Assembly (NCBI GenBank): GCA_017552715.1
Contig: JAFZOW010000064.1
Location: 1 to 35,062 of the forward strand
Direction of reading: 5' to 3'
DNA length: 35,062 nt
Origin: Lachnospiraceae bacterium
Lineage (GTDB): Bacteria; Bacillota; Clostridia; Lachnospirales; Lachnospiraceae
This document shows positions 3,302 through 32,404 of the stretch, one piece after another. The notes beneath the pieces are model-generated. The model was not told the origin of the DNA, searched no databases, and saw only the letters and a program-made list of their open reading frames with translations. Every line of letters starts with the position of its first letter. The stretch's first letter is position 1. Both the position numbers and the translations under genes were made by a program.

Positions 3302-3453
3302 GCAAGGCCCCAGCTGTTTCTGCTCCGTGCCGTGAACAGATATCTCGAATACATGTGTCGCAGGCGGCAGGACGACAAGCAGAGCGTATGCCCGGAGGAC
3401 GGCCGCAAGGCCCCGGCTGTTTCTGCTCCGTGCCGTGAACAGATATCCCGAAT
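3302..3453. repeat. 49-bp direct repeat pair
   Basis: 3302-3350 and 3405-3453 match at 47 of 49 positions with an offset of 103 bp. The shared core includes CTGTTTCTGCTCCGTGCCG. A diverged inverted copy lies at 3122-3149. The function is unknown. Confidence 0.85.
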
Positions 3454-3481
3454 CCTTATCCTGCCGCCGGCAGATAAACAC

Positions 3482-3510
3482 TTGCGATTTCGGCCCGATG
3501 GGTGTATATT
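3482..3510 (+). promoter_or_regulatory. argG promoter
   Basis: TTGCGA (3482-3487), a 17-bp spacer and TATATT (3505-3510). The transcript should start near 3517, giving a short leader of about 27 nt with GGAGG before the argG ATG. There is no room for a T-box or riboswitch. Confidence 0.65.
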
Positions 3511-3543
3511 GTTAGAAAATTTGAAAATGCGGAGGACTAAACC

Positions 3544-4764
3544 ATGGCAAAGGAAAAAGTGATCCTGGCATATTCGGGAGGGCTGGATACCACAGCTATC
3601 ATTCCCTGGCTGAAGGAGAATTTCGATTACGAAGTGGTCTGCGTGTGCGTGGACTGCGGACAGGCGGAAGAGCTGGACGGGCTGGAGGAGCGCGCTAAGA
3701 GCTGCGGAGCCGAAAAGCTTTACATCCTGGATGTGACGGATGAATTCGCCGACGAATATATCGTGCCCTGCGTGCAGGCGCATGCGGTATACGAGAACAA
3801 ATATCTGCTGGGTACGTCCATGGCGCGTCCCCTGATCGCCAAGAAGCTGGTGGAGATCGCACGGAAAGAGAATGCTGCGGCGATCTGCCACGGTGCAACG
3901 GGTAAGGGGAATGACCAGATCCGTTTTGAGCTGGGCATCAAGGCACTGGCTCCGGATCTGCGCATCATCGCAGCCTGGAGAAACGATAAGTGGACCATGG
4001 ATTCCCGTGAGTCCGAGATCGAGTACTGCAAAGCCCACGGCATCCATCTGCCTTTCTCGGCGGATTCAAGCTACAGCCGTGACCGTAACCTCTGGCATAT
4101 CAGCCATGAGGGGCTGGAGCTGGAGGATCCGGCCAATATGCCCAATTACGACCATCTGCTGGTACTGGGTGTGACCCCCGAGAAGGCTCCGGATGAGGGA
4201 GAGACCATTTCCCTGAGCTTTGAGAAGGGTATTCCCGTAGCCATCAACGGCGAGAAGATGAAGGTTTCCGATATCATCCGCAAGCTGAATGAGCTGGGCG
4301 GCAAGCACGGTATCGGTATCGTGGATATCGTGGAGAACCGTGTGGTTGGCATGAAGAGCCGCGGTGTATACGAGACACCGGGCGGGACCATCCTCTATGA
4401 GGCGCATCAGCAGCTGGAGGAGCTGATCCTGGATCGTGAGACCACCAAGACCAAGCTGGATATGGGCAATCTCTTCGCACAGATCGTGTATGAAGGAAAG
4501 TGGTTCACCCCTCTGCGTGAGGCGGTGCAGGCCTTCATCGAGAGCACCCAGAAGTATGTGACCGGCGAAGTAAAGCTGAAGCTTTACAAGGGAAATATCA
4601 TCAAAGCCGGGGAGACTTCACCTTACTCTCTGTATAACGAGAGCATCGCGTCCTTCACTACCGGTGAACTCTATAACCACCACGACGCGGAAGGCTTCAT
4701 CAACCTCTTCGGTCTGGCCAGTAAAGTCCGCGGGATGAAGCATAAGGAACTGAGCGGGGAATAA
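3544..4764 (+). CDS. argG: Argininosuccinate synthase
   Basis: ArgG ligates citrulline and aspartate with ATP cleavage to AMP and pyrophosphate, the penultimate step of arginine synthesis, in the cytoplasm. At 406 residues it is the usual length. The N-type ATP pyrophosphatase loop AYSGGLDTT is at residues 9-17. Also visible are the family segments GATGKGNDQIRFE, SRESEIEYCKAHGI and KLKLYKGNI. The ATG at 3544 has GGAGG about 8 nt upstream. The usual partner argH is not in this window, and argJ, which acts earlier in the pathway, lies 3 kb away on the opposite strand in a different operon. Transcription appears to end at the terminator directly downstream. Confidence 0.97.
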   Translation: MAKEKVILAYSGGLDTTAIIPWLKENFDYEVVCVCVDCGQAEELDGLEERAKSCGAEKLYILDVTDEFADEYIVPCVQAHAVYENKYLLGTSMARPLIAKKLVEIARKENAAAICHGATGKGNDQIRFELGIKALAPDLRIIAAWRNDKWTMDSRESEIEYCKAHGIHLPFSADSSYSRDRNLWHISHEGLELEDPANMPNYDHLLVLGVTPEKAPDEGETISLSFEKGIPVAINGEKMKVSDIIRKLNELGGKHGIGIVDIVENRVVGMKSRGVYETPGGTILYEAHQQLEELILDRETTKTKLDMGNLFAQIVYEGKWFTPLREAVQAFIESTQKYVTGEVKLKLYKGNIIKAGETSPYSLYNESIASFTTGELYNHHDAEGFINLFGLASKVRGMKHKELSGE

Positions 4765-4774
4765 GAAAAAAAAC

Positions 4775-4810
4775 GAGGGCAGGGGCGGGGCTCCTGCTCT
4801 CTTTCCTTTT
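4775..4810 (+). terminator. argG terminator
   Basis: GAGGGCAGG (4775-4783) pairs with CCTGCTCTC (4793-4801), 8 of 9 bp, followed by a T-rich tail up to 4810. The next gene starts almost on the tail. Confidence 0.7.
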
Positions 4811-4814
4811 GTGT

Positions 4815-5105
4815 ATGGATGTTATCCGTGTTATCATCATCTATCTGGTGGCTCTTAACCTTCTTGGCCTGGGACTGATGGGACTGGACAAGTGGAAAGC
4901 CATGTATCACCGCTGGCGTATCCCGGAGGTCCATCTTTTTCTGGTGGCTTTTCTGGGCGGCAGCCTGGGGAGCCTTGTGGGAATGTATCTGTTCCGGCAT
5001 AAGACGAAACGCTGGTATTTCCGCTACGGATTTCCGCTGATCCTGGGAGCGCAGCTGGTGTTCGGAGCCTGGCTCATCGGATCGGATAAAGTTGTGATAA
5101 TGTGA
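4815..5105 (+). CDS. DUF1294 family small membrane protein
   Basis: This 96-residue integral membrane protein has hydrophobic segments at about residues 3-20, 34-54 and 70-90. The signature GLDKWKA, then RIPE, then a Gly-rich GGSLGSLVGMYLFRHKT and a closing PLI is that of DUF1294, whose function is unknown. ATG 4815 is used; an in-frame TTG lies at 4809. Neither has a visible Shine-Dalgarno sequence, since the upstream bases are the T-rich tail of the argG terminator. It ends 19 bp before trkA and may be cotranscribed with trkA-trkH, but the family is found in many contexts and no role in potassium transport should be assumed. Confidence 0.85.
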   Translation: MDVIRVIIIYLVALNLLGLGLMGLDKWKAMYHRWRIPEVHLFLVAFLGGSLGSLVGMYLFRHKTKRWYFRYGFPLILGAQLVFGAWLIGSDKVVIM

Positions 5106-13423: not shown

Positions 13424-13561
13424 CAAACGACAAAAAACTCTTTTTGTTTTGTCGTTTGCTGCGCCGGATTTTGGCCGCGGAGCGGCAGATTTCCATACAA
13501 AATCTGTGCGCATCCTCGCGGAGCGGTATAGAAAACGCAGTTTTCAATTGCGTTTTCTATA
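13424..13561 (-). ncRNA. Structured 138-nt repeat element, copy 1 (leader of the GNAT-ABC-argJ operon)
   Basis: Read on the minus strand this matches copy 2 at 28004-28141 over the same 138-nt length. Three hairpins are predicted: 13549-13561 with 13527-13539 (13 bp, perfect); a long-range stem 13508-13512/13460-13464 and 13498-13506/13465-13473 (one A-C mismatch, one bulged base) capped by GCCGC/GCGGC at 13482-13486/13474-13478; and 13447-13458 with 13424-13435 (12 bp, perfect). It lies in sense orientation between a predicted promoter and the first gene. It could be a cis-regulatory RNA or a MITE/REP element; I cannot match it to a named RNA family. Confidence 0.6.
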
Positions 13562-13576
13562 CACAAAATCCGTGAT

Positions 13577-13605
13577 AGTATATCACAAAGAAGAAAGACA
13601 TACAA
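13577..13605 (-). promoter_or_regulatory. Promoter of the GNAT-ABC-argJ operon
   Basis: On the minus strand, TTGTAT (13605-13600), a 17-bp spacer and TATACT (13582-13577), with TGA directly before the -10 hexamer. The predicted transcript start is near 13570, giving a leader of about 170 nt that contains the whole structured repeat. It lies just after the stop of the histidine kinase gene. Confidence 0.7.
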
Positions 13606-24844: not shown

Positions 24845-27800
24845 ATGAAAAAACGGATCCGGAGAGATTTATCCCTGCTGATGACGGTGTTGCTGATCTT
24901 TGGCAGTATCCCCGTGTATGCGGCGGATGATGCGGGATCGCCGGAAGCGCAGGCCGGAGAGGCGGAAGCGCCTTCGGAGGATGCAGCAGTCCCCGAAGAG
25001 GACGCGGCGGCAGCTTCAGCAGACGCGGCTGTCAATTGGCCCGTGCCTGGGGCGGACTGGTATGAAGCTTATGACTATACCCTGAAAGAAGAGGATGGGG
25101 TCATCGAGCTTAACAACTACAAAAGCGGGAATACGGCAGAGTATGTGGTGGTTCCGGCTACGGCGACCATCGCCGGCAAGAACTATTCGGTAGTGCTGAA
25201 TACCATCAATCCGGATAACAGCACGGTAAGCCTTTGGGGCTCATACAACCAGACCATCAAAGGCATAAAGATCCTGGAGGGCGTAAAGGCAAAGAAATGC
25301 AGCCATCTCTTTTATTCTTTGCCGGAGCTGACGGATCTGGATCTGAGCGGGCTGGATACGAGCGGTGTCACGGATATGACGAATTTCCTGTGTTACAGCC
25401 GGAAGCTGACCAACCTGACGCTGGGAGACCTTGATACTTCGGCCGTTACCTCCATGGAAGGAATGTTTGAAGGGATTGCTGTAAGCTCCCTTGATCTGAA
25501 GGGATTTGATACCACGCACGTGACTTCGATGTCACAGATGTTTTATCAGTGCACTGAACTGGTGGATCTGGATCTCAGCTCCTTTGCCACGCCGGCTCTT
25601 ACCGAAATGAGCTGGATGTTCTATGAGTGTGAAAAGCTGGAAAATCTGCGCTGGGGGGACGGGCTGGATACGTCCAAAGTGCAGACGATGTATGACATGT
25701 TCTGCCGCTGCGAGAAGCTGAAGGATGCCGGGCTCTCCCGTTTCAACACCTCGAATGTCACTTCGATGTCCAGCATGTTCTGCGGATGTGAAGCCATGAC
25801 AGAGATCGATCTCAGGAATTTTGATTTTTCCAAAGTAGAAAGCATGTCATACATGTTCTACAACTGTGACAGCATCAGGACCGTGTATTTTCCGGAAGAA
25901 ATGAGCACCCCGGCCCTGAAGGATATGAATGCGATGTTTTCTTCCTGCAAGAAGCTTGTGAAAGTCGATCTGTCCCGTTTTGACACCGGAAATGTTACGG
26001 ATATGTCGGATATGTTTGACTATGACGAACAGCTTCGGGAAGTGCTTTTCAGCGACAGGTTCATCACCTCCAAGGTGACAGACATGCGCGGGATGTTCCG
26101 CCAGTGTTTCAGACTGCAGGTCCTGGATGTGAGCAGTTTCGATACTTCCAATGTGACGTCGATGGACAGTATGTTTGAAAGCTGCGATGCCCTCCGGACC
26201 ATCGATGTGAGCGGCTTTGATACCTCCAAGGTTACGGATATGGGGGATATGTTCTATAATTGCGAGTCTGTGCTGAGCCTGGATGTGAGCCGTTTTGATA
26301 CTTCCAATGTTACGGATCTGTATCACATGTTCCGGGGCTGCTCCAGGCTGCGCAGCCTCGACCTGAGCAGTTTTAATACCGAAAAGGTGGAAAACTTCTA
26401 TCAGCTGTTCTTTGAATGCCGTGACCTTACGGTGGCGGATCTCAGAAGCTTTGATTTCAGCAACGGAACTCCCATCGAAACGTCGGGATCCGGGGACCTG
26501 CACAGCTTTATCGGCGACAGCGGCATCCGTCATCTTTATCTGCCGGTGAAGGCCATGAGCGGCTTTGATTTTACACGTGATCTGTCCATTTCCGGGGAAG
26601 CGGGCTATGCCCTGACGGATATCTTCTATGCCGGAACGCAGGAGGAATGGACGGCGCTGGGGAATACGGTACCTGCGAATGTAACGATGCATTATGAATA
26701 TACGGATCCGTCAACGCCCATCGTGCCCGACAGGACTCCGGTGAGTTCCATCAGTCCTGAGACGCATGAGCTGAGCCTGAAAGCCGGCAGCTATAAATAT
26801 GTACCGATCACGGTTTCTCCCGAGAATGCTACGGACAGAGGAACGGTCAGCATCAGCTCGGATCCCACCGTGGCATATTCGGATAACTATGCGACGATCT
26901 GGGCCCTTAAGCCCGGAAGCTGTACGATCACCGTTTATGCCCTGGACGGAAGTGGCGTGACGGGCAGTATCGCCGTAACGGTCACGGAAGGAAACGGCGA
27001 CGAGCCCGGCCCCGGACCCGATCCCGATCCCGATCCCGGACCGGATCCTGCCGATCCCATCCCCGGAGGCGGCGGAGCCACGGATCCCCAGCCCCTCATT
27101 ACAAATGAAGCAAACCAGAGCCTGACCCTGGTCAAGGGACAGAAGTTCGTGATGGCGGATAAGGGTTGGAAGAGCAGTGCCAAAAAGACCCTTGCCGTCA
27201 GCAAAAAGAATGTGACGGCAAAGAAGGCCGGAGAGGCGGACCTTACTTTCGGAGCTCATACCATCCATGTGACCGTACTGGCTCCGATACTTTCCGGGGA
27301 CGAAAAGAAGCTGAAGAAGGAAGCCGGGGATGAATTTCAGTTGAGCCTGGCCGGAGTAAAGGCATCGGGAGGGAAGATCCTCCTTGCGGGTGCGCCGGAA
27401 GCGCTGGATATACTCTTTGTCAGCTCCGCACCGGATGTGGCTACGGTGGATGAGGACGGGAACGTCAGGACGGTAGCGAAGGGCAGTTCCACCATTACCG
27501 CCTATGTCAACGGTGTGGCATTCAAGTATACGCTGAAGGTCGCGGAGAGCAGTCCTGCTGCGGAACGCACCCTGCATCTGAACAAGGGAAAGAGCAAGAC
27601 CATCAAACTCAAGGGACAGAAGAGCCCCTGGACGATCTCCGGGAACAATATCGTTTCCGTCAGTAAGAGGAACAAGATCACCGCTAAAGAAACAGGAGAG
27701 ACGACCCTGGTATACGAAGGATATACGATCCATGTTTATGTGGAGGATCCTTCCATCGAGGATACGGGCAAGTTTAAGAAGACCTACACGATGAGCGTGG

Positions 27801-27979
27801 GACAGAGTATGCCTATCCCTTTAAAGAGCCTGTATCGCACTCCTTTCTTTAAGAGCAACAAGAGTTATATCGCCTATGCGGACGAGGATGGCATGATCTA
27901 CGCCCGCAGCAAGGGGACGGCCAAGATCACGGGAAAGATCAACGGCAGAACGGTCACCATCACGGTGAAGGTACAGTAG
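24845..27979 (+). CDS. BspA-like surface protein with DUF285 repeats, Big_2 and basic C-terminal module
   Basis: This 1044-residue secreted protein has a signal peptide MKKRIRR...IPVYAA (residues 1-27) and AAGGAGGTG before the ATG. An acidic Ala/Glu linker follows (28-65). Residues about 160-541 are some fifteen DUF285-type leucine-rich repeats of about 24 residues, built on FDTSNVTSMxxMFxxC and LxxLDLSxF, as in Bacteroides/Treponema BspA adhesins. A Big_2 immunoglobulin-like domain spans about 625-715, then a PDPDPGPDP and Gly4 linker, then a lysine-rich module of roughly 300 residues ending at the C-terminus. That module also ends the protein at 28166-32404. No LPXTG or membrane anchor is present. 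It is likely a surface adhesin or host/plant-polymer-binding protein; the ligand is unknown. Confidence 0.92.
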   Translation: MKKRIRRDLSLLMTVLLIFGSIPVYAADDAGSPEAQAGEAEAPSEDAAVPEEDAAAASADAAVNWPVPGADWYEAYDYTLKEEDGVIELNNYKSGNTAEYVVVPATATIAGKNYSVVLNTINPDNSTVSLWGSYNQTIKGIKILEGVKAKKCSHLFYSLPELTDLDLSGLDTSGVTDMTNFLCYSRKLTNLTLGDLDTSAVTSMEGMFEGIAVSSLDLKGFDTTHVTSMSQMFYQCTELVDLDLSSFATPALTEMSWMFYECEKLENLRWGDGLDTSKVQTMYDMFCRCEKLKDAGLSRFNTSNVTSMSSMFCGCEAMTEIDLRNFDFSKVESMSYMFYNCDSIRTVYFPEEMSTPALKDMNAMFSSCKKLVKVDLSRFDTGNVTDMSDMFDYDEQLREVLFSDRFITSKVTDMRGMFRQCFRLQVLDVSSFDTSNVTSMDSMFESCDALRTIDVSGFDTSKVTDMGDMFYNCESVLSLDVSRFDTSNVTDLYHMFRGCSRLRSLDLSSFNTEKVENFYQLFFECRDLTVADLRSFDFSNGTPIETSGSGDLHSFIGDSGIRHLYLPVKAMSGFDFTRDLSISGEAGYALTDIFYAGTQEEWTALGNTVPANVTMHYEYTDPSTPIVPDRTPVSSISPETHELSLKAGSYKYVPITVSPENATDRGTVSISSDPTVAYSDNYATIWALKPGSCTITVYALDGSGVTGSIAVTVTEGNGDEPGPGPDPDPDPGPDPADPIPGGGGATDPQPLITNEANQSLTLVKGQKFVMADKGWKSSAKKTLAVSKKNVTAKKAGEADLTFGAHTIHVTVLAPILSGDEKKLKKEAGDEFQLSLAGVKASGGKILLAGAPEALDILFVSSAPDVATVDEDGNVRTVAKGSSTITAYVNGVAFKYTLKVAESSPAAERTLHLNKGKSKTIKLKGQKSPWTISGNNIVSVSKRNKITAKETGETTLVYEGYTIHVYVEDPSIEDTGKFKKTYTMSVGQSMPIPLKSLYRTPFFKSNKSYIAYADEDGMIYARSKGTAKITGKINGRTVTITVKVQ

Positions 27980-28003: not shown

Positions 28004-28141
28004 TATAGTAAACGCAATTTTCAATTGCGTTTACTATAACGCTCCGCGAGGATGCGCACGGATTTTGTAATGAAATATGCCGCTTTCAGCGGCCAAAATC
28101 CGGCGCAGCAAACGACAAAACGAAAAGACTTTGGTCGTTTG
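28004..28141 (+). ncRNA. Structured 138-nt repeat element, copy 2 (upstream of the LRR_5 surface protein)
   Basis: This copy has the same length and order as copy 1 on the opposite strand. The stems are 28004-28016/28026-28038 (13 bp), 28053-28057/28103-28107 and 28059-28067/28094-28102 (with one bulged A) capped by 28079-28084/28088-28093, and 28109-28116/28134-28141. Against copy 1, the first stem shows an A-T to T-A double change, the GCCGC hairpin gains a T-A pair, and the A-C mismatch of copy 1 becomes a G-C pair. It ends 25 nt before the start codon of the next gene. I see no clear separate promoter, so it may be read through from the gene upstream. Confidence 0.6.
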
Positions 28142-28165
28142 CTATACATGTCATGGAGGTATGAT

Positions 28166-31100
28166 ATGAAGCATAAAAAAATGATGGAGAGAGTGCTTAG
28201 TCTGATCCTGTGTCTGGTCCTGCTGTTTCCGGATATACCGGCTCGTGCAGAAGGGGAGACGGAAGGAGACAGCGGGGAGTGGGAGGATACATCTTCGGAG
28301 GAAGGAACGGAACCGCTTGGGGTACCCCTGCCGGAACAGGAGGAGCTGAGCGAAACGGGCGAGCCGGCGGCAGCACAGGATTACGGCCTGAAAGATCCGC
28401 GGCTGATCCATGAATGGTGGAGTAACATCTTTGAATACGACACCATATGGTTTGGCTCTTATGTGCAGGACGATATCACGGGCGAACAGAAGAATTCCAT
28501 TCGCTGGCGGGTGCTGGATGTGAGCGGTAACGAAGCTCTGCTGGTCTCGGATTCCATCCTGGATCTTCAGCCCTTTCACGATGTGGAAGATACGGCGGAA
28601 ACCATGGATGCCTGGTGGCATAATTCTACCCTGCGCTCCTGGATGAACGGATACGGCGCCTCGGAGAACCTGGCGGGAAAAGACTACAGCGGGGAAGGGG
28701 ACAGCTTTATCACTAAGGCCTTTACGCCTGCGGAGCGGGAGGCTATTATCCCTGATGTACAGAAGGGGGAATCCGGTTATTCCAGCGTTTTGGAGAAGAG
28801 GATCAGTGAACCGGATACGCTGGATAAGGTGGGCCTGCTCGGACAGGAGGATATCGATGAGCATTCCTATTGCTTATACTATATGTATATCGGTAATTCC
28901 TATCTGAACATGCGTCAGAAAGCAAGCAACTATGTCATGGCACAGTCCCGCGGTCTGCTGCGTTACTGGCTCCGCGAGATGTACGACCGGCGATATAACG
29001 AGACCAGCACGCTTGAAAAGACCGAAGAATTTGGGAAAGGCTATTACTTATCGGATGACGACAGTTATCAGAATTATTATATTGAAAACGTTTTTTACAA
29101 AAATGAAGCGCACGGGGTTGTGGCCAGGATCCGGCTGGATCTGAGCAAAACGGATCTCTGGTCTTTTGCGGGTACTACAACGAGTGAGGGTCTGGATGAT
29201 CTTTCGGATGCGGCCCCCATGCCTGTTCGCGTGGATTACAGCAGGCAGGTGCTTCCGGCTACGGAGGGACTGAAGCTTTCCGATGATAAGAAGACAGCTC
29301 TTTCCTATGAGGGTGAGAGCCTCGTCGTTGTGATACCTGAAGGGGTAGAGGAGCTGAATCCGGATTTTTACTTAAACTCCAGGGAAATCGGCTATCTGCA
29401 TCTTCCGTCCACGCTGAAGTCAATACCGGACAAATGCTTCAGCCATGAGAAGCTGGGAACGGGGGATAAGGAAAAGAAAGGGGATCTTACTTACGTTCGA
29501 TTTAATAATCCGTCGGTCTCGCAGCTTAGGACCATCGGAGAATATGCTTTTTATGACGAAGCATTGTTTGAAGTCCTTCTGCCGGAAGGACTTGAAGAGA
29601 TAGGGGCTCACGCCTTTGAAGAGAGCTTCCGGGATGGTATCGGCTTCGGGGGAAACCATACCAATATGTGCTTTCCCGACAGCCTGAAGCTGATAGGAGA
29701 GAGTGCCTTTCAATTTGCACAGATTCAGTATTATCACTTTGGGAGCGGGCTGGAGAGACTGGGGTACAGAGCTTTTTATGCTTCGAACATCGTTACGGCC
29801 GATCTGTCCGCCTGTAAAAAGCTTAAAACGATACCGGATGAGTGCTTCTGCTGCGTGGCACTCAAAGAAGATCTGCTTAATGTGGTGCTGAACGAGGGAC
29901 TGGAAGAGATCGGCGCAAGGGCTTTTGCCTGGGCCGGAAATGATTCCAAGCCGATCACCATCGTGGTTCCTGACAGTGTAAAGAGTATCGGAGACGAAGC
30001 CTTTGCGGACGGAACCATCGAGAAGCTGACCCTGCCCGAAACCGTGGATCATTTCGGAGAGCATGTGATCAGCCTGGCGGGGAGTCTGCATTACCTGCGA
30101 CTTCCGAAGAATCTGACGAAAATCGACCGAATCTTTCGTAAAATCCAATATGAGGACAGTATACCCAGGATCCTGGTCTGTGAGGGGGATGTAAGTGAGG
30201 TGATCTGGGGGGGAGCTGCCGAAAATCAGTATATCCCGAAATATATTATTTACGGAAAGCCCGGTACGGCGCTGGAACAGGCGGCAAGGGAAAACGGCCT
30301 GACTTTTTATGACTGCACAAAGAACCCGCCTCCGCAGGACTATGAGATAAGGATCACGGAGCGGGATCTGAATGTGGTGGCGGACGGAGATGCCCTGTGC
30401 TCCTATGATGAAAATACCCTGATGCTTTTGGGGAAGGGAACCTATAAGATTTCCATGAAAGATGGGGTAAGCTCCACTACGGACTGCATCGTGATCAGAA
30501 GTGACTGTACGGTCGAGCTTGATAATGTAAACATCCAGACGGACGCGAATATGGACTATGGCTTTCCCGACTGGACCTATGGTGGCTTCGCCGGCATATG
30601 GATCCCGACCAATTCCGGCGCGAAGGTGACGATACGCTTCAAAGGAACGAATACCATCAAGGGCTCGGGCATGCTGCTCGGCATCATGAAGTATTCGAGA
30701 AACTCTGCCGGGCAGCTTACGCTGGAGGCGGCCAGTGGTACGGATGCCGATGTGCTGATCTGCAACGGCATCGGCTATGATGATCTGAGCGGAAACCGCC
30801 CGCGGGATGAATATGGCAACCTCTATTATCATTCGCACAATATCACGATAGGGAGCGGAACGGTAAAGAGCAGCTTCGGAAACTGCGGGTGCAGTAATTT
30901 CCAGATCAACGGCGGCGTGCTGGAGACGGATACCATCGGGAACCTGAAGGTGAATGGCGGAACGGTAAAGGCTTCAAATGGCGTGGAGCATTTCAGTACC
31001 GTCAGGATCAACGACGGTGATGTGTCCGTCAGTACGATCGAAAGCGAATCCAAGATCCAGATGTACGGAGGACGGCTGAATATCCAGAATTACAGACGCA

Positions 31101-32404
31101 TGGACGGGGAGCTGGAGTATCACGGCGGCTTTGTTTTTTCCGGTGAAGAGCAGATCTACCCGAACGAGGAGACGGTGTATCCGGAAAGCGTGGTCATCAG
31201 CAAAAGCGAGCTGAGCCTGAGCGTGAATGAGACGTTTCAGCTGGAAGCCCATGTGCTGCCGGAGAACGCAACGAATAAAGAGATACGCTGGTCCAGCGGG
31301 AACGGGAATATCGTGACGGTGGATGAGACGGGGCTGGTCACCGGCGTTTCCGAGGGGACGATGACGATCTATGCGTCTTCCCTGCATGACAGCAGTAAAC
31401 GGGCGGAATGCAGGGTGACGGTCACCGGATCCGGAACGCCCGCTCCGGCTCCGGAACCGATCCCCGAACCTTCGGAGCCGATCCGGGGAGGAGGCGGGCC
31501 CACGGACAGCCAGCCGGCGCTTTCTGCCGAAAAGCTTCAGAAGATCACGCTGGTGAAGGGCCAGAAGTTTGTGATGGCAGATAAGGGCTGGAAGAGCAGC
31601 GATAAAACGGTAGTGCGTGTAAGCAAAAAGAATGTGACGGCAAGGAAGGCCGGATCGGCCGTGCTCAGCTTCGGGGAACACAGGATCGATGTGACGGTGG
31701 TGGACGCAAAGCTTTCCAGGGAGGAAAAGAGCATAAAACTGGAAGCGGGAAGCGGCGTGCAGCTGACCCTGGCGGGAACAGCGGCGGGGCTCAATACGAT
31801 ACGCCTTCCCGGTACTTCGGAAGATCTGGGGATACGCTTTATCGCCGCCAACCGTAATGTGGTCGAGGTTGGAAATGACGGATATGTGACGGCGGTCTCC
31901 AAAGGAAAGACCACGGTCACTGCCTATATCAACGGTGTGGCCTTCAAGTACACGATAAAAGTGACGGAAACCGCATCGGTCAAAGAGCGTACGCTGCATC
32001 TCAATGTGGGGCAGAGTAAGAACATAAAGCTGGTGGGAGTTAAGTATCCCCAGTGGGAGATCACAGGGGATGCGATCGTTACCGTGAGCAAAAAAGGGAA
32101 GATCACCGCAAAGCGGGAAGGGGAGACCACCCTGGTCTTTGGAGATTACAAGCTTAACGTATTGGTGGATGATCCCAGATTTACGGAAAACATGAAATAC
32201 AAGATAACATACACCCTGCATCCGGGAGAAGATATTCCCCTGGGAGCCTGCCTGATCCACGGCAATGTGCTCTATAAGAGCAATAAGGACCACATCGTCT
32301 GGGCGGATGTGGTCGGACATCTTTACGCCCGCGGCAAGGGCACGGCCAAGGTCACGGGCAAGGTGAACGGAAAGACGGTGACGATCATCGTGAAGGTGAA
32401 GTAA
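28166..32404 (+). CDS. Giant multidomain surface protein: DUF6273, LRR_5, beta-helix-like, Big_2, basic C-terminal module
   Basis: The product is 1412 residues from ATG 28166, which has GGAGGT 5 nt upstream and gives a proper signal peptide (MKHKK...IPARAEG). The frame is open back to 28052, but that part is the structured repeat. Order: acidic linker (30-75); DUF6273-like domain (about 85-340: IWFGSYVQ, IRWRVLDVSGNEALLVSD, LRSWMNGYG); LRR_5/BspA repeats (about 380-650: LPEGLEEIGAHAFEES and similar), closing with IYGKPGTALEQAARENGLTFYDC; a repetitive beta-rich, parallel-helix-like region (about 725-995); Big_2 (about 1006-1088); a Pro/Ala/Glu linker and Gly3; then the lysine-rich module shared with the preceding surface protein. 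No LPXTG. Probably an adhesin or glycan-binding surface protein. Confidence 0.9.
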   Translation: MKHKKMMERVLSLILCLVLLFPDIPARAEGETEGDSGEWEDTSSEEGTEPLGVPLPEQEELSETGEPAAAQDYGLKDPRLIHEWWSNIFEYDTIWFGSYVQDDITGEQKNSIRWRVLDVSGNEALLVSDSILDLQPFHDVEDTAETMDAWWHNSTLRSWMNGYGASENLAGKDYSGEGDSFITKAFTPAEREAIIPDVQKGESGYSSVLEKRISEPDTLDKVGLLGQEDIDEHSYCLYYMYIGNSYLNMRQKASNYVMAQSRGLLRYWLREMYDRRYNETSTLEKTEEFGKGYYLSDDDSYQNYYIENVFYKNEAHGVVARIRLDLSKTDLWSFAGTTTSEGLDDLSDAAPMPVRVDYSRQVLPATEGLKLSDDKKTALSYEGESLVVVIPEGVEELNPDFYLNSREIGYLHLPSTLKSIPDKCFSHEKLGTGDKEKKGDLTYVRFNNPSVSQLRTIGEYAFYDEALFEVLLPEGLEEIGAHAFEESFRDGIGFGGNHTNMCFPDSLKLIGESAFQFAQIQYYHFGSGLERLGYRAFYASNIVTADLSACKKLKTIPDECFCCVALKEDLLNVVLNEGLEEIGARAFAWAGNDSKPITIVVPDSVKSIGDEAFADGTIEKLTLPETVDHFGEHVISLAGSLHYLRLPKNLTKIDRIFRKIQYEDSIPRILVCEGDVSEVIWGGAAENQYIPKYIIYGKPGTALEQAARENGLTFYDCTKNPPPQDYEIRITERDLNVVADGDALCSYDENTLMLLGKGTYKISMKDGVSSTTDCIVIRSDCTVELDNVNIQTDANMDYGFPDWTYGGFAGIWIPTNSGAKVTIRFKGTNTIKGSGMLLGIMKYSRNSAGQLTLEAASGTDADVLICNGIGYDDLSGNRPRDEYGNLYYHSHNITIGSGTVKSSFGNCGCSNFQINGGVLETDTIGNLKVNGGTVKASNGVEHFSTVRINDGDVSVSTIESESKIQMYGGRLNIQNYRRMDGELEYHGGFVFSGEEQIYPNEETVYPESVVISKSELSLSVNETFQLEAHVLPENATNKEIRWSSGNGNIVTVDETGLVTGVSEGTMTIYASSLHDSSKRAECRVTVTGSGTPAPAPEPIPEPSEPIRGGGGPTDSQPALSAEKLQKITLVKGQKFVMADKGWKSSDKTVVRVSKKNVTARKAGSAVLSFGEHRIDVTVVDAKLSREEKSIKLEAGSGVQLTLAGTAAGLNTIRLPGTSEDLGIRFIAANRNVVEVGNDGYVTAVSKGKTTVTAYINGVAFKYTIKVTETASVKERTLHLNVGQSKNIKLVGVKYPQWEITGDAIVTVSKKGKITAKREGETTLVFGDYKLNVLVDDPRFTENMKYKITYTLHPGEDIPLGACLIHGNVLYKSNKDHIVWADVVGHLYARGKGTAKVTGKVNGKTVTIIVKVK

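Follow-up and report, generated by a model that had tools for sequence, protein, structure and literature searches.

Two copies of a structured sequence in the window, i.e., the whole 35,062-nt stretch of Lachnospiraceae DNA analysed here, are likely members of a large Lachnospiraceae family of small non-autonomous mobile DNA elements. The type present in the window (type A) measures about 140 bp and has the ends TATAGYAAACG...CGTTTRCTATA. We favor this reading because the copies are dispersed, their ends are sharp, one orthologous site is unbroken, no protein is coded and no linked gene family was seen. Overall, the best reading of the data is a new family of miniature mobile elements that resemble ERIC and Correia repeats and are unusual in combining a conserved core with exchangeable ends, and the element is probably not a switch of the two genes that it adjoins.

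The two copies and the anatomy of the element

The two copies are 138 nt each and share 86% identity (E = 8e-41, search with copy 1 as query; Table 1). Alignment and folding agree with an earlier note on this DNA, which had described two copies of the same length and fold on opposite strands, distinguished by a double change in stem 1 (A-T to T-A) and one added base pair in the capping hairpin. Its observation that each copy lies in sense just before a start codon also holds: the ATG of an acetyltransferase-like open reading frame (ORF) lies 25 nt beyond the end of copy 1, and that of a gene for a large secreted-type protein lies 24 nt beyond copy 2. The good promoter that it placed before copy 1 was absent at the threshold of our scan, although a weak TTGTAT-17-TATACT with 8/12 consensus bases can be recognized there by eye. 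Folding energies were -50.5 kcal/mol for copy 1 and -58.1 kcal/mol for copy 2 (z = -5.2 and -7.8 relative to 200 shuffles), and the opposite strands folded about equally well (-56.9 and -57.3 kcal/mol). The outer ends form the inverted repeat given above, intact in copy 2 and lacking its right end in copy 1; such ends are a transposon-like feature. The search of Rfam suggested in the earlier note returned no Rfam 15 family at gathering score in the whole window (0 matches). Matches at relaxed thresholds were weak, at chance level, below gathering scores and of unlike kinds, and identity with a known Rfam RNA was rejected.

Two further repeats were observed in the window. The large secreted-type proteins encoded at 24845-27979 and 28166-32404, with copy 2 between them, are adjacent and have a common 159-nt repeat (at 27197 and 31619, 70%). 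A 69-nt direct repeat (3302-3370 and 3405-3473, 86%) lies directly 5' of a gene that by eye is argininosuccinate synthase-like.

Table 1 Parts of the two element copies in the window.
Feature	Position	Strand	Basis
Copy 1 of element, type A	13424..13561	-	sequence, similarity search, folding
Copy 1, core matched by covariance model R1	13460-13525	-	model search
Copy 1, hairpin H1, 13 bp; left end TATAG	13527..13561	-	folding
Copy 1, mini-hairpin TCC-GCGA-GGA of conserved core	13513..13522	-	folding, alignment
Copy 1, long stem: bulged A, 5'-side bulge (GGAAAT), capping hairpin, GGCGC	13460..13512	-	folding, R1, alignment
Copy 1, hairpin H3; terminal CTATA lost	13424..13459	-	sequence, folding
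Possible weak promoter TTGTAT-17-TATACT, 5' of copy 1	13577..13605	-	by eye; absent from promoter scan
Copy 2 of element, type A	28004..28141	+	sequence, similarity search, folding
Copy 2, core matched by R1	28040-28107	+	model search
Copy 2, hairpin H1, 16 bp	28004..28038	+	folding
Copy 2, mini-hairpin of core	28043..28052	+	folding, alignment
Copy 2, long bulged stem, capping hairpin, GGCGC	28053..28107	+	folding, R1, alignment
Copy 2, hairpin H3	28108..28141	+	folding
Copy 2, right terminal inverted repeat TATAGCAAACG; partner 28004-28014	28136..28146	-	inverted-repeat comparison

All types follow a common plan: hairpin H1, a core mini-hairpin (TCC and GGA around a loop that is mostly GCGA), a long stem and a capping hairpin, GGCGC or a variant of it, and hairpin H3. 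One bulged A (102/103 alignment rows) and a one-sided bulge holding GGAA interrupt the long stem. The sequences of H1, H3 and the long stem vary among types and the core persists, i.e., the inner core is conserved better than the ends, which is opposite to the pattern of usual MITEs.

Types were assigned by short patterns and differ in their ends (slashes mark the element boundary). Type A ends read TAT/AG...CTATA/ at 19 left and 17 right ends, four chance or doubtful partial matches (L051, L066, L141, L171) being excluded from these counts, and carry terminal inverted repeats, whereas the left and right ends of type B are unlike each other. In one genome, the element boundary of type B (TTTAA/CTCAG...TTGAC/) was sharp at 53 left ends and at 51 right ends, with random flanks beyond; the left target was TTTAA in 32/53 and AA in 53/53, the right end was TTGAC or a close variant in 51, and no duplication was visible at the TTTAA/TTGAC ends in this one genome. 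Types C/D, classed as terminator types (56 of the copies listed), started in a T-run in 53 cases, 42 of them with a hairpin directly before the run (vs. 8/52 control segments), and T's followed H3 in 49. Clostridium fessum (G293) carries two element types in one genome.

Several variants were observed beside these forms. Some type B copies (in Eubacterium oxidoreducens, G174, and at other loci, e.g., L067, L110, L163) have a long form with an extra CCCCCACCT/AGGTGGGGG hairpin inside H1 and CTCAGTCGG present twice, which gives the single 3' strand two competing 5' partners. For some type B copies, the preceding sequence was considered as inserted IS605 right ends; this was rejected, as further upstream it proved to be the longer element form with its extra hairpin and repeated CTCAGTCGG. 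The H1 sequence restarts after H3 in L195, L198 and L342, like tandem copies. Five loci of type A genomes (L172, L173, L174, L177, L178) show H1 or H3 but lack the usual core; TATAG...CTATA-like ends occur at some of them, as though an individual hairpin could persist or move by itself. In L172 a variant core adjoins H1.

Family size, genomic placement and orthologous sites

In the genome that contains the window, a similarity search found four full type A copies and one 5' fragment, and a covariance model of the central domain (R1, built from 22 sequences) gave eight matches. Each of the four type A copies precedes a gene in sense orientation. The four additional R1 matches are divergent. Terminator-like sequences precede two of them, a third has other TA-flanked ends and the fourth looks degenerate. 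One of the four runs antisense to the genes on both sides, and another follows a gene of opposite orientation. Plain BLAST with copy 2 matched 22/98 genomes, the own one included. The covariance model search of relatives, as proposed in the earlier note, recovered a family with covarying structure in 118/299 Lachnospiraceae genomes (117/298 genera), a survey with stricter filters and 17 candidates scored per genome, in which per-genome counts are lower bounds. The E. oxidoreducens genome alone has 82 R1 matches. A class-wide sample gave matches in 7/291 genomes; two of these seven belong to other families and keep the core and recognizable flanking hairpins at three places. An exact 20-mer of the core occurs in at least 120 stretches, mostly labelled Lachnospiraceae or its genera among the matches listed, although gathering by exact 20-mer overstates the constancy of the core, which is also variable in the R1-gathered set. 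As in MITEs, there are many dispersed copies per genome, shorter than about 200 bp and coding for no protein.

Copy 2 had no match in phage or plasmid collections, and carriage by phages or plasmids was set aside; one viral contig contains the core 20-mer, but the flanking features are absent there. We found no earlier description of the element in open-licence PMC main texts, where the core words occurred in 0 papers; the main text of PMC8040213 does not mention Lachnospira, Blautia or transposons.

Genomic context was counted for 61 of the 82 E. oxidoreducens matches, i.e., those that lay in the fetched regions and were recognized with a core pattern, and for 216 copies in other loci, with ORFs called by a simple codon score. 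The 216 exclude the four partial matches named above, and a few E. oxidoreducens places are counted in both sets. Tandem copies were predominantly in sense (sense:antisense 37:2 in E. oxidoreducens, 112:16 elsewhere), least so in type A (19:5) and more so in types B (44:8) and C/D (49:3). Convergent places outnumbered divergent ones, at 18:2 and 19:7, respectively. Since a circular chromosome has equally many convergent and divergent gaps, these ratios indicate a preference for the 3' ends of genes. Raw ratios of same to opposite orientation were 56:5 for the upstream and 39:20 for the downstream gene in E. oxidoreducens, and 160:27 and 139:43 in the other loci. The upstream gene of a convergent copy is in sense either way, and therefore the raw upstream counts are not used as an argument; without convergent places, the E. 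oxidoreducens ratios are 38:5 upstream and 39:2 downstream. In that genome, 20/61 copies start exactly at the stop codon of the upstream gene. Leader-like positions follow because the copies sit after genes in sense, which in operons also places them before the next gene.

Orientation in E. oxidoreducens followed the regional gene majority and GC skew in a ratio of 55:6 (14:4 between convergent genes). Outside this genome the skew ran against the element in 15/16 antisense tandem copies, so that these counts do not separate a replication-strand rule from an effect of gene direction.

The 625 ORFs lying no more than 4 kb from a copy at the 120 loci listed contained no standout neighbour family; this survey included L051, L066 and L141 and not L171. 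The largest neighbour cluster at the loci listed, ABC transporters, comprised 14 ORFs at 11 loci. Inspection of the downstream genes, another check proposed in the earlier note, thus gave no consistent position upstream of functionally related genes.

Orthologous sites provide evidence of mobility. Orthologues of flgB were found in 34/35 genomes of the genus, and in the 20 loci fetched, a core within 420 nt upstream occurs in the own genome only (1/20). The leader sequence CCGATATA-ATA... is unbroken in 5/6 aligned relatives, and excising the element in silico from the own flgB leader restored the alignment with them. An insertion with an unbroken orthologous site, as known from MITEs, was thus found at the flgB leader, the one clean site. 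The insertion place reads TATATA, which fits a TA duplication or none. Matches to the acetyltransferase downstream of copy 1 exist in 33/35 genomes; at the 13 other loci fetched, no core lies upstream, but gene order differs, so that they provide no clean empty site. Separately, we observed a leader GCATAGGCAGGGAAGCC...CTGTGCT before flgB in the own genome (C108) and in several relatives (L366-L378). This may be a separate structured leader; two of these loci were scanned and had no Rfam match at gathering score.

Covariation, mobilization and competing explanations

In 103 distinct rows, 91.7% of cells were paired and the covariation score, from an alignment fitted to the model, was 0.415 vs. 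0.127 for shuffled and at most 0.081 for slid controls. A first MAFFT alignment of 22 sequences had scored 0.310 vs. 0.145 (shuffled) and at most 0.101 (slid). Such covariation is the mark of a maintained fold, in DNA or RNA, and not of RNA function as such. Selection on an RNA of the sense strand should leave G-U pairs more often than A-C pairs. Paired columns held 1897 Watson-Crick, 62 G-U, 56 A-C and 121 other cells; 44/62 G-U cells fall on a single closing pair, where U-A occurs in 39 rows, and 24/56 A-C cells fall on one possibly misaligned column pair. Away from the closing pair, G-U and A-C numbered 18 vs. 56, or 18 vs. 32 without the possibly misaligned pair, i.e., the 103 rows had no excess of G-U over A-C that would mark covariation specific to the RNA strand. 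Because pairs are almost only Watson-Crick and a G-U excess is absent, DNA structure or template-switch repair explains the covariation as well as RNA does; template switching in replication is described as a source of compensatory change (PMC8794818). The core, the bulged A and the GGAA-type bulge stayed constant while the stems changed on both sides, and the mini-hairpin loop was GCGA, GCAA or GGGA, all GNRA, in 80/103 rows, with non-GNRA loops occurring as well. This constant unpaired core needs a reason and points to recognition of the folded form.

The lowest H1 pairs, on the flank side, vary between copies of one genome (C. aminophilum L081, L085, L100, L133, L135; C. fessum L197, L319, L320, L322, L328). 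By eye they mostly stay paired, with exceptions (e.g., L312, L323, L329), and could reflect either palindrome repair or pairing between element and target.

Among the Y1 and IS630 families, we found neither a mobilising enzyme nor an autonomous transposon with the same ends. Y1_Tnp (PF01797) is present in 5/7 carriers and absent from G000 and G044 (86% complete); the Y1 elements of E. oxidoreducens have ends unrelated to those of the element. IS630 (PF13358) occurs in 2/16 carriers and is absent from 14, including G000 and G009, and three IS630 matches had no ends matching the element. Lone H1/H3 places in type A genomes and E. oxidoreducens were considered as sites of an autonomous partner and rejected; those inspected proved to be isolated or truncated hairpins, copies with internal deletions and one N-gapped copy, with no transposon. 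In the gapped copy (type B; L262, contig C20 of G174, ~3400-5030), a run of about 1.6 kb of N separates H1 from the long stem, an interval of well under 200 nt in other copies, and an insert could hide in this run. In L270 (2150-2440), the start of a truncated transposase, which we take to be IS256-like, runs into a 5'-shortened element copy.

The earlier note found that the copies fit a cis-acting RNA leader. On this reading, the transcribed element would respond to a signal or be bound by a protein and so control translation or transcription of the gene just downstream. The sense position near start codons in the window, shared by all four type A copies of the own genome, and the covarying stems would suit such a leader. 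However, the neighbours include no standout family, and convergent gaps, where no sense gene lies downstream, are richer in copies than divergent ones, the reverse of what is expected of leaders. Two of the four extra R1 matches in the own genome lie antisense to both neighbours or after an opposite gene, the insertion is confined to one genome among the flgB loci examined, and the stems come with neither a G-U excess nor an Rfam match above chance level in the window. We consider a regulatory leader very improbable on these grounds, and copy number and genomic context rule out a private leader of the two genes. The alternative raised in the same note, insertion of a mobile repeat into leaders, accounts better for the context and orthologous-site evidence. 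That note had expected a plain mobile repeat to show many copies in random orientation and no covariation; the copies are indeed many, but they are oriented and they covary.

How such mobile elements move and what keeps their core constant could be explained in several ways. A double-strand cut-and-paste MITE of the IS630/Correia/RUP type with TA duplication, its stems kept perfect by replication template switching and not by function, is a less likely possibility. It accommodates the TATAG...CTATA ends of type A, the unbroken site, the almost exclusively Watson-Crick pairs and the distal H1 pairs that change together among copies of one genome (by eye, with exceptions), and the described effect of template switching. 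Yet one TA mechanism does not cover a family in which type B ends show no duplication and types C/D start in T-runs, IS630 is missing from most carriers (14/16), and template switching leaves the constant unpaired core unexplained. It is rather unlikely that the core works as RNA in a mobile element, a folded sense transcript being protein-bound or itself active and thereby keeping the core constant while the ends change. The constancy of core, bulged A and GGAA-type bulge amid changing stems, the mostly GNRA loops, the sense bias of copies and the joint occurrence of U-G and U-A at the closing pair would fit this, but the G-U to A-C ratio elsewhere bears no mark of selection on a sense-strand RNA, the opposite strand folds about equally well and loops outside GNRA occur. 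It is also conceivable, again as a minority view, that several miniature elements whose ends and targets are unrelated (TA-type, TTTAA/TTGAC, terminator T-tracts) have one folded core in common, the core and not the ends being the recognized unit. If true, they would form a new class of mobile elements guided by structure, and their shared partner would be an enzyme acting on folded DNA (single-stranded) or on folded RNA.

For the family of mobile elements as a whole, we infer that a transposase acting in trans would recognize the element in its folded form, in the simplest case while it is single-stranded DNA in replication, and that the element would be joined to short T/A-rich sites (TTTAA, TATA, terminator T-tracts). 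Such sites would be frequent on the coding strand just 3' of genes, and with harmful insertions lost, surviving copies would mostly lie 3' of genes in sense. Transcribed copies would add hairpins to mRNAs and may alter their stability or processing, by analogy with reports for ERIC/Correia, an effect that is presumably not specific to the downstream gene.

Comparison with known systems

Structured mobile repeats can be mistaken for riboswitch-like leaders, and the element is a case where covariation alone does not prove RNA function. Its constant core and exchangeable ends point to a mobilising factor to look for, and copies on terminators or stop codons may alter the 3' ends of many operons. 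Covarying stems and constant loops are shared with the structured RNAs of Rfam 15, none of which, in contrast, matched the window at gathering score.

Similarities to REP/BIME and to the ends of IS200/IS605 elements (Y1) include constant unpaired bases in changing stems, an oriented T/A-rich target and a position 3' of genes. Type B alone, which is not the type of the window, has the fixed left target, the fixed right end and the lack of duplication of the IS200/IS605-REP pattern, and its TTTAA/TTGAC ends presumably resemble target/right-end pairs of that family. Unlike REP/BIME, the element is much larger and consists of multiple hairpins, a Y1 gene is absent in 2/7 carriers and the Y1 ends in E. 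oxidoreducens differ. With Correia/NEMIS and RUP (IS630-type MITEs), it shares terminal inverted repeats and TA ends, and type A starts with TATAG, as Correia repeats also do. In contrast to these, IS630 is absent in 14/16 carriers, other types have non-TA ends and the inner core is constant. For Correia, transcribed hairpins and RNase III cleavage are described in PMC2229807 and PMC10969869. The same papers describe ERIC as 127-bp enterobacterial repeats that are foldable, intergenic and co-transcribed, with a reported orientation-dependent effect on upstream mRNA. Judged by these descriptions and not by sequence, the element resembles ERIC in being small, foldable and intergenic, needing no protein of its own, having TA ends and reaching tens to hundreds of copies. 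It differs in its hosts, in having one core common to several end types and in the location of some types on terminators or stop codons.
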